From NCBI GenBank assembly GCA_938074325.1, contig CALJFZ010000002.1:1-64000 (forward strand): a stretch of DNA of 64,000 nt, given 5' to 3'. Source of the stretch: an uncultured Flavobacteriales bacterium. GTDB taxonomy: Bacteria; Bacteroidota; Bacteroidia; Flavobacteriales_D; Sanyastnellaceae. Both the position numbers and the translations under genes were made by a program. Of the stretch, positions 4,088 through 50,964 are shown in pieces. Below the pieces are notes generated by a model that worked only from the letters and a program-made list of their open reading frames with translations, did not search any database and was not told the origin of the DNA. Each line of letters starts with the position of its first letter. Positions within the stretch are counted from its first letter, which is position 1.

Positions 4088-5155
4088 TCATAGGCTAAAT
4101 CGGAGTCCGATGAACGGATAATCGGCCCGCAGCCGAAAGGATCTCAGTCCGGCTTCGATGGCCCATTGCGTCCCGAACGCATAAGCGAATACCGCTTGCA
4201 AGTGGCGACGGCCCAACGCTTCATCTGGGCGGGTCCAGACCCAGCCTTGCAGAAGCATGAGGTGGGCGTTTCCAAAATGCAGGTTGACGCCCAATAAGCT
4301 GGAAAGTTGGAGTTTTTCACGGGGATTCAAAGGTTGCAGATGGTAGGCGCGCAGGCTTTGATTGTGCGCCAGGTCAAGGGCTCCGGTCCATGCAAAGGCA
4401 CCGCTGATGTGCCGCTGCGCATACGCCCCTGCGCTGAGCACGGGATGTCTGGGGCCGCCGGGCAAATTGACATCCCGCATGCCTGATCGGACTGCCAAGG
4501 CGTATGTCCATCGGTGTTGTGGCGTCGAATGGGCGTGAGCCACTTCCTGCGAACGGCTGTCATTGAGCAGCCCTCCTCGCATGCGGATATGCACATTGTT
4601 GATGCCCAGATTGGGCAAAGCCAAAGCCCCATTGGAGAAATGTGTCAGGCCTGCACCCAAGGCAAGAAATGCACGGTCGCCGGACGCAATGGTGACGGAT
4701 GTACCCAAATGCAGTCCCGCATTCCATCGGGTGCCGATGGCGATGGACAACGGACGATTAATGGGATCGTACGGGGCTGAGGCCCACCCGATTCCTGTGC
4801 CCAACTCGGCATGCCAATTGGTCCGAATGGGAATCTTTATTAACCACAAAGCGCTCGCGACGCTGCCAAGTTCGTCGCTGCCACCGTCCAACCAGCCCAG
4901 TTCAACCCCTTGCCATACGGGACCGTGCTGGCTCCAGTTGGCTCGCCAACCCGCCCGATCCCAGTTTCCGCGCCGAATGCCTACGCCGTGTGAGTGGCCG
5001 GTGACCAGGGCGAGCATTTCCGCTCGGTGGGGCAGGGCGTAGCCTTTGCTGACTTCCACACCCCAATCTGGGGTTTGGGCTGAGGCCATGGGCACGGCAA
5101 ACCACGCAGCCAAGGTGGTCGCGATTCCAAAAACGATTGTACAAGAGGTCCTCAC
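4088..5155 (-). CDS. PagL-like lipid A deacylase / acyloxyacyl hydrolase family outer-membrane protein
   Basis: Signal peptide; beta-barrel-like sequence; characteristic LTHFSNGALALPNLGINN motif. GTG start. Confidence 0.75.
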   Translation of the reverse strand: MRTSCTIVFGIATTLAAWFAVPMASAQTPDWGVEVSKGYALPHRAEMLALVTGHSHGVGIRRGNWDRAGWRANWSQHGPVWQGVELGWLDGGSDELGSVASALWLIKIPIRTNWHAELGTGIGWASAPYDPINRPLSIAIGTRWNAGLHLGTSVTIASGDRAFLALGAGLTHFSNGALALPNLGINNVHIRMRGGLLNDSRSQEVAHAHSTPQHRWTYALAVRSGMRDVNLPGGPRHPVLSAGAYAQRHISGAFAWTGALDLAHNQSLRAYHLQPLNPREKLQLSSLLGVNLHFGNAHLMLLQGWVWTRPDEALGRRHLQAVFAYAFGTQWAIEAGLRSFRLRADYPFIGLRFSL

Positions 5156-5187
5156 GGTCCGAATTTAGCAAGGCATACCTTTGTGCC
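5156..5187. promoter_or_regulatory. 32-bp head-to-head promoter module between pagL-like gene and mazG
   Basis: Minus: CGAATTTA at 5160-5167 (reads TAAATTCG on the minus strand) then 4 nt to GTG 5155. Plus: TACCTTTG at 5176-5183 then 4 nt to ATG 5188. The boxes are 8 bp apart. Confidence 0.6.
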
Positions 5188-6000
5188 ATGCACAGCATTG
5201 AAGAGAAACTGGCGGCATTCGAACGGCTGCTGAAGATTATGGGCGAACTGCGTGAGCAATGTCCATGGGACCGGAAGCAGACCTTTGAAACCTTGCGCCA
5301 TTTGACGATTGAAGAAACCTACGAGTTGTCAGAGGCCATCATGGATGCCGATGTCGAGGAGATCCGAAAGGAGACCGGTGATCTATTGCTGCACATGGTC
5401 TTCTATGCGCAAATCGCAAGCGAGACGCCCCGTGAAAAAGGCGGGTGGGATATTGCCGATAGCTTGAATGGCATTTGCGACAAATTGATTGATCGCCACC
5501 CGCATATTTATGGAGATGTAGAGGCCAACGACGAAGAAACGGTCAAGGCGAACTGGGAGCAATTGAAGTTGAAAGAGGGCAAGAATTCCGTGTTGGAGGG
5601 TGTCCCCAAGGGACTGCCAAGTTTGGTAAAGGCGTACCGAATTCAGGACAAAGTTCGTGGTGTCGGCTTCGATTGGGATAACGCGGACCAAGTATGGAAC
5701 AAGGTCCAGGAGGAGTTGGGGGAGTTCCAAGCGGAGATTGCGGCTGAGTCGGATCGTGCGGCCGATGAATTTGGCGACGTTCTCTTTGCCCTGATCAATT
5801 ATGCTCGCTTCAAAGGCATCAACCCGGATGAGGCACTTGAACGCACGAACCGCCGATTTCAGGCACGTTTTCAGCATATGGAATCGGCCATCCAGGCAGG
5901 ATTGGCTGAAGGGGGTAAGCCCATGTCGGAAATGGAGTTGGCGGAATTGGATGAGCATTGGGAACGGGCTAAAATCGCATTGGGTCAAGCAGATTCGTGA
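5188..6000 (+). CDS. mazG: Nucleoside triphosphate pyrophosphohydrolase MazG
   Basis: LREQCPWDRKQTFETLRHLTIEETYELSEAI, EEIRKETGDLLLHMVFYAQIA, DKLIDRHPHIYGDV and EFGDVLFALINYAR motifs. Start moved to ATG 5188. Confidence 0.96.
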   Translation: MHSIEEKLAAFERLLKIMGELREQCPWDRKQTFETLRHLTIEETYELSEAIMDADVEEIRKETGDLLLHMVFYAQIASETPREKGGWDIADSLNGICDKLIDRHPHIYGDVEANDEETVKANWEQLKLKEGKNSVLEGVPKGLPSLVKAYRIQDKVRGVGFDWDNADQVWNKVQEELGEFQAEIAAESDRAADEFGDVLFALINYARFKGINPDEALERTNRRFQARFQHMESAIQAGLAEGGKPMSEMELAELDEHWERAKIALGQADS

Positions 6001-49983: not shown

Positions 49984-50017
49984 GGTATAGAGATTAAAAA
50001 TGTTTGTTCAACTCGGC

Positions 50018-50049
50018 CAAATATATAGGCGGGATTTCAAGGCTGGCAA
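50018..50049 (-). promoter_or_regulatory. Putative Bacteroidota-type promoter of HU (TTG-N21-TATATTTG)
   Basis: Minus-strand TTG at 50049-50047 and TATATTTG at 50025-50018; about 34 nt upstream of the ATG. Confidence 0.5.
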
Positions 50050-50146: not shown

Positions 50147-50482
50147 TTACGGCCTGTTCTGGCGGTTGATGCGCTCGTGTACAAACCACAAGATGAGCGA
50201 TAGTAAGGGGACGATGCCCAGCGATGCAGGTGACGCATCAAGCACGGCCCATTGCCCGAGGCAAACGGCAACGGAAACAATGCACAAGCTGACGACAACG
50301 ATGCTGAAGAACGACCGATCCCAGTTGGGTGAATTCAAGGCGATGCTGATGAGCAATGGCACCAATGTCGCAAGAGAGGCCAACAACCAAGCAACTGCCG
50401 CTGGGTCCTGCGTGAGTCCGAGAAAGGAATACAGAAACAACCCCAACCAACCGAGGCGAGAGATGGTTTGCATTTTCTTCAT
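50147..50482 (-). CDS. Hypothetical small membrane protein
   Basis: 111 aa with about four hydrophobic segments; preceded by an exact TACCTTTG-N4-ATG element. Confidence 0.6.
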   Translation of the reverse strand: MKKMQTISRLGWLGLFLYSFLGLTQDPAAVAWLLASLATLVPLLISIALNSPNWDRSFFSIVVVSLCIVSVAVCLGQWAVLDASPASLGIVPLLSLILWFVHERINRQNRP

Positions 50483-50514
50483 GAGCCAAAGGTACGAGCC
50501 GGTACTTTTGCCCC
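50483..50514. promoter_or_regulatory. 32-bp head-to-head promoter module between membrane protein and thioesterase genes
   Basis: Minus: CAAAGGTA 50487-50494 (TACCTTTG), 4 nt to ATG 50482. Plus: TACTTTTG 50503-50510, 4 nt to ATG 50515. Boxes 8 bp apart. Confidence 0.65.
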
Positions 50515-50964
50515 ATGCAAGACTTTCTTCTGCCTCCTGGACAGGTATACACTCCGGAAATCCGCTTTGTCGATATCGATGCTGCTGGCATCGTCAACAA
50601 TGCCACTTACTTCAATTACTTCGAACAGAGTCGGATTGCCTTCTTTGAGCCCTTGCTCGGTAAGAAATGGGATTGGAATGTAGCGGGCATGGTGGTCGCT
50701 CGCCATGAAATTGACTATCGTCTGCCCATCCTATTCAACGACAATGTGCGCATCATTACCTGGATTGAGCACATCGGAGGCAAAAGCATGACGGCTGCGT
50801 ATGAGGTGTACAAGGTACATGGAGAGGATTGGGGGCTCGTAGCTGAAGCCAAGACGGTTTTGGTTTCCTTTGATCACCGTGCAGGTCGTCCAGTCGCCTG
50901 GGCAACGGAAGTGGTAGAGGCGGCGAAGGAATTTGGGTTGGGCCGGCCTCAAATTTCAGTTTGA
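50515..50964 (+). CDS. Acyl-CoA thioesterase, 4HBT/YbgC-like hotdog fold
   Basis: IRFVDIDAAGIVNNATYFNYFEQSRIAFF and HEIDYRLPILFNDNVRIITWIEHIGGKSM motifs. Confidence 0.92.
   Translation: MQDFLLPPGQVYTPEIRFVDIDAAGIVNNATYFNYFEQSRIAFFEPLLGKKWDWNVAGMVVARHEIDYRLPILFNDNVRIITWIEHIGGKSMTAAYEVYKVHGEDWGLVAEAKTVLVSFDHRAGRPVAWATEVVEAAKEFGLGRPQISV

Follow-up and report, generated by a model that had tools for sequence, protein, structure and literature searches.

The closest described relatives of the locus reported here are the sigmaA(Bfr) promoters of Bacteroidota, bacterial leaderless genes and the bidirectional promoters of E. coli. In F. johnsoniae, sigmaA(Bfr) promoters have a -7 element with the consensus TAnnTTTG, most -7 boxes stand 4 or 5 nt from the transcription start site (TSS), and the -33 element is weak, 'much less evident', and not a strict requirement (PMC6847099). 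In F. psychrophilum the box lies at -12 to -5 (PMC9723704). Leaderless genes, whose promoter position predicts an mRNA starting with AUG, are known from bacteria (Zheng 2011, PMC3160421; F. psychrophilum, PMC9723704). Using a search based on Pribnow-like boxes, Zheng et al. called such genes in 1 of 37 Bacteroidetes/Chlorobi genomes (PMC3160421). Three mapping studies, which used different cut-offs, reported 5'UTRs shorter than 10 nt for 3.7% in B. theta, a leaderless share of 5.5% in F. psychrophilum (PMC9723704), and 87% of leaders longer than 10 nt in F. johnsoniae, so at most 13% leaderless (PMC6847099), while work on base composition had suspected more leaderless genes in Bacteroidota (PMC5397173). 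The E. coli bidirectional promoters of Warman and colleagues are compact, symmetric and divergent, with TSSs 10, 18 or 23 bp apart (PMC12825309). Leaderless mRNAs and bidirectional promoters are both established already; we found no description in the open-access literature of a conserved double-leaderless divergent promoter in Bacteroidota.

We analysed a 64,000-nucleotide stretch (the window) from an uncultured Flavobacteriales bacterium of the Sanyastnellaceae, in which only 32 bp separate the start codons of two divergent genes. The minus-strand gene (50147-50482) encodes a 111-aa small membrane protein with several hydrophobic segments and no confident Pfam or NCBIfam family; its divergent homologue adjoins the thioesterase in nearly all loci of the same genus. 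The plus-strand gene (50515-50964) encodes a 149-aa hotdog-fold thioesterase of the 4HBT_2 / YbgC-FadM-like type, which matches Pfam PF13279 (E=1.6e-18) and thioesterases in the PDB, its match to TIGR00051 being under the cut-off of that model. For neither gene is there a plausible alternative to the assigned start codon: within the thioesterase no further ATG, GTG or TTG appears until codon 47, and the membrane protein has no start codon upstream of the assigned one and ATG4 as its only near alternative. A leadered gene for an HU-like DNA-binding protein (by inspection; window 49985-50025, minus strand) adjoins the locus, with TATATTTG at 34 nt and a T/A-rich leader, in contrast to its leaderless neighbours.

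Read directly, positions 50480-50517 run CAT-GAGC-CAAAGGTA-CGAGCCGG-TACTTTTG-CCCC-ATG, with CAT at 50480-50482, CAAAGGTA at 50487-50494, CGAGCCGG at 50495-50502, TACTTTTG at 50503-50510 and ATG from 50515. This reading confirms what the earlier note had claimed, namely that two facing boxes both match TAnnTTTG exactly and that each stands exactly 4 nt from its own start codon. The -7 box of the putative membrane-protein promoter, TACCTTTG on the minus strand (50487-50494), is followed by the spacer GCTC (50483-50486, minus strand), and the -7 box of the putative thioesterase promoter, TACTTTTG on the plus strand, by the spacer CCCC (50511-50514, plus strand), each with C at -1. The 8 bp between the boxes form a G+C-rich core, CGAGCCGG, which relatives vary in both length and sequence. 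Both boxes occupy -12 to -5 relative to their own ATG, matching the Flavobacterium distances, and the predicted +1 therefore falls on the A of each ATG, at 50482 and 50515.

The window contains no excess of TAnnTTTG as such (18 found against 20.1 +/- 4.7 expected), and plain counting of it was dropped as evidence; since the bare box is uninformative, its position is what carries information. At the observed density of 18 per 128,000 strand positions, the chance probability of two boxes at two prescribed positions is ~2e-8.

The genome also encodes a 290-aa primary-type sigma factor with a short N-terminus lacking the region 1.1 extension, as described for sigmaA(Bfr), and the TAnnTTTG -7 element of sigmaA(Bfr) promoters is present at the locus. 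As in F. johnsoniae, G is absent from the two variable positions of the box and there is no clear -33 (PMC6847099). The earlier note had held that any -33 contacts must lie inside the opposite coding sequence, which is true as geometry; however, no -33 element is detectable, as TTG or TTTG near -33 showed no positional enrichment upstream of 50 leaderless boxes of the same genome, so that no promoter contacts need be placed in the opposite coding sequences. A TTG 23 nt before each box, due to the ATGCAA with which both genes start in close relatives, seemed suggestive as a -33; it was rejected, having no enrichment over the 50 sites. The promoters differ from those of F. johnsoniae in the predicted start on the start codon itself. 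Side observations on the 50 leaderless sites are a G+C-rich stretch of ~4 bp just upstream of the boxes, which is the sole signal on that side, and TTCG in place of TTTG in 15 of the 50, also unlike F. johnsoniae and possibly a lineage-specific promoter preference. No 16S rRNA gene, which would carry the anti-SD tail, was found in this metagenome-assembled genome.

We interpret the locus, with a probability of about 85%, as a compact sigmaA(Bfr)-type divergent promoter that is double-leaderless and sterically exclusive. The housekeeping RNA polymerase of Bacteroidota with sigmaA of the Bfr type would recognise and melt either TAnnTTTG box, and RNA would begin 5 nt downstream of the box, at the A of ATG. 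Both mRNAs would then start 5'-AUG and be translated by ribosomes as leaderless mRNAs. Because the boxes are 8 bp apart and the predicted TSSs 33 bp apart, two polymerases could probably not occupy the site together, as argued for E. coli (PMC12825309), and the two genes would be transcribed from mutually exclusive binding events.

Conservation of the boxes in relatives, the check proposed in the earlier note, gave a strongly positive result. In all 19 same-genus loci in which the region was present and readable, each box lies 3-5 nt from its ATG, the distance being exactly 4 nt on both sides at 17 loci, and the inter-box gap is 8 or 9 bp. The membrane-protein start was read by eye in L019, one of these loci (gap 9), and in L022 (gap 5), and both fit. 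Allowing TTYG, the 19 genomes retain 226 of 228 key box positions, 114/114 in the membrane-protein box and 112/114 in the thioesterase box. Over the same loci the thioesterase agrees with the window copy at only 31% of its fourfold-degenerate sites, a level that amounts to saturation, and we conclude from the sequences compared that the conserved boxes in this gap are not due to chance. An exact search for the 38-bp pattern in 84,980 genomes returned 30 matches, seven of which are this locus as judged by both proteins; an eighth (L053) is this locus by its membrane protein, its contig ending inside the thioesterase. Several other matches were set aside as chance palindromes with no open frames, and L251 was likewise a chance match.

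The arrangement belongs to a class found throughout the genome. In the 2.15-Mb assembly TANNTTTGNNNNATG is found 63 times and its reversed control 19 times. In a sample of 464 kb and 350 genes, called with a simple home-made gene finder so that gene fractions are approximate, TAHHTTYG stands 4 nt from the ATG of 19 genes and 3-6 nt from that of 32/350. The box-to-start distances are bimodal, with a sharp peak at 4 nt (4-6), nearly none at 10-16 nt and a second rise at 17-26 nt. The near-empty range that separates the leaderless from the leadered class hints at selection against leaders of roughly 5-12 nt. By these approximate figures, leaderless genes make up ~10% of genes in this lineage and roughly half of its consensus-box promoters, shares that set it apart from the known bacterial leaderless genes. 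The 4-nt peak recurs in two congeners (14/124 and 12/118 genes) and in a more distant genome of the same class (G227, 23/319), and is small in an A+T-rich genome of that class (G266, 4/177); a further sample (G047) was given no weight as implausibly few genes were called (130 in 400 kb). Across 248 Bacteroidota genomes the ratios of pattern to control differ widely between families, and box usage is therefore lineage-dependent.

The base at -1 of the 4-nt sites is C in 33 of 36 and a pyrimidine in 36 of 36, compared with 149/317 (47%) and 192/317 elsewhere (Fisher p ~1e-7), as expected of a pyrimidine/purine initiator, C(-1)A(+1). In addition, residues 1-163 of peptide deformylase, another gene of this genome with a 4-nt start, are in register with residues 1-165 of the Thermus enzyme (1v3y), so this class of start codons is not an annotation artefact. 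The leaderless reading in the earlier note thus gains support from the genome-wide 4-nt peak, from C(-1)A(+1), from the 4-5 nt between box and TSS in F. johnsoniae and from the -12 to -5 placement in F. psychrophilum.

The alternative that survives best, though we consider it unlikely, is that the boxes are real promoters but secondary ones, with leadered transcripts starting farther upstream, within the opposite genes. In cultured Bacteroidota most mapped mRNAs do carry leaders, and the few leaderless mRNAs in those maps are a counterpoint to our interpretation; upstream promoters with non-consensus boxes may also lie inside the neighbouring genes. However, the 250 bp upstream of each gene contain no other TAHHTTYG box at any of the 19 loci, the 4-nt peak represents a genome-wide class distinct from the leadered one, and the saturated fourfold sites of the thioesterase argue against close constraint there.

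Comparison across the family, where the thioesterase turned up in 103 of 114 genomes, bears on whether the near-palindrome might instead, or besides, be an operator bound by a dimer that regulates both genes. In other genera the box-to-ATG distance stays at 4-5 nt while the inter-box gap takes values of -2, 4, 5, 8 and 9 (5 in g14). The boxes overlap in four loci of two other genera (L023, L024, L025 and L027), with one TA common to both, e.g. CGAATGTACATTCG, and 23 bp between the start codons. In five more (L106, L113, L116, L118 and L120) the gap is 4 bp with both box-to-ATG distances intact, apparently because a 6-bp tandem unit (TACATT/TATATT) was duplicated or deleted. Selection therefore holds the distance to each ATG and leaves the middle free. 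Among more distant members, two (L094 and L122) retain a leaderless thioesterase box with a leadered membrane protein, and in others the pairing of boxes is lost. An operator would account for the inverted symmetry and for the GAGCC in the middle that is common to several close relatives, but we regard it as very improbable: the conserved letters are those of the sigma consensus TAnnTTYG, a dimer could hardly tolerate such variation in half-site spacing at a fixed ATG distance, and the same box stands at the same distance from tens of unrelated genes. It is scarcely credible that TTTG with a C-rich spacer before ATG serves to recruit ribosomes in short leaders, since, even though Bacteroidota, which lack SD sequences, rely on other initiation signals (PMC6847099), the TA at box positions 1-2, in fixed spacing to TTTG, is part of the sigma element, C at -1 after a T-rich box does not resemble an A-rich context, and leadered genes have the same box at least 17 nt upstream.

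Taking the locus as a double-leaderless divergent promoter, we compared it with the bidirectional promoters of E. coli (PMC12825309), which it resembles in being compact, symmetric and divergent and in the expected exclusion of simultaneous polymerase binding. The boxes in the window differ in sharing no bases, in having predicted TSSs 33 bp apart where those of E. coli are 10, 18 or 23 bp apart, in following another sigma consensus and in that both transcripts are predicted to be leaderless. The term 'bidirectional promoter', used in the earlier note, thus holds as far as the facing boxes go but not in the strict E. coli sense, and the locus is better described as two abutting promoters. One shared -10-type element, as in Warman et al., is absent from the window and is present, by sequence, in L023-L025 and L027, where the predicted TSSs are ~23 bp apart.

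We also looked for other pairs of this kind. Pairs of facing TTTG boxes at most 30 bp apart number 11 in the genome, against 4 in the control. Both boxes are 4 nt from ATG in three of its pairs, namely this locus, SmpB/adenosine deaminase-like and RibAB/peptide deformylase, the names SmpB, deaminase and RibAB coming from sequence inspection. The second of these lies at C11:80005-80058 (L085) with a box gap of 24 bp, and the third at C46:8254-8309 (L091) with one of 26 bp. An excess of double-leaderless pairs within the genome was rejected: with a leaderless share of 17% among divergent genes, ~1.7 double pairs are expected under independence and 2-3 were seen in the 464-kb sample. The striking feature is the retention of the pair at this locus and not the frequency of pairing. 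The window contains a second 32-bp head-to-head gap (5155-5188), between a PagL-like gene (minus, 5155) and MazG (plus, 5188), with boxes 8 bp apart; the PagL-like side has a GTG start and TAAATTCG at 4 nt, and the MazG side TACCTTTG at 4 nt. Most of the genus retains this pair, with a distance that is nearly always 4 on the MazG side and varies on the PagL side. Furthermore, a search of 395 genomes of the class found, in three species of one other genus, a perfect palindrome that is double-leaderless with a shared TA, and gave no control hits. These loci (L252, L253 and L254, ~1501-1528), from another family, carry CATGCTTCAAAGTTACCTTTGCAAAATG between the genes of a thioesterase that looks PaaI-like by inspection and of another conserved protein; given the different thioesterase-like gene, we regard the palindrome, on its sequence, as a further, separate instance of this design.

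Both the conserved combination and the large share of leaderless genes (~10%) look new. It is probable, in our judgement, that minimal double-leaderless divergent promoters, with 23-33 bp between start codons and nothing else, form a class under strong selection in this family. Some genera would have compressed them to one 14-bp palindrome with a single shared TA, and they would lock the transcription and translation starts of two genes together in a lineage where leaderless promoters are about half of those with a consensus box. On this reading, the locus illustrates how little sequence a complete regulatory region for two genes needs, and offers a natural case in which one short sequence fixes the transcription and translation starts of both genes. 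An avoidance of short leaders would bear on how ribosomes start in bacteria lacking SD sequences. Overall, our analysis suggests that leaderless expression, which a few cultured species had made appear minor in Bacteroidota, is a major mode in this uncultured marine lineage.
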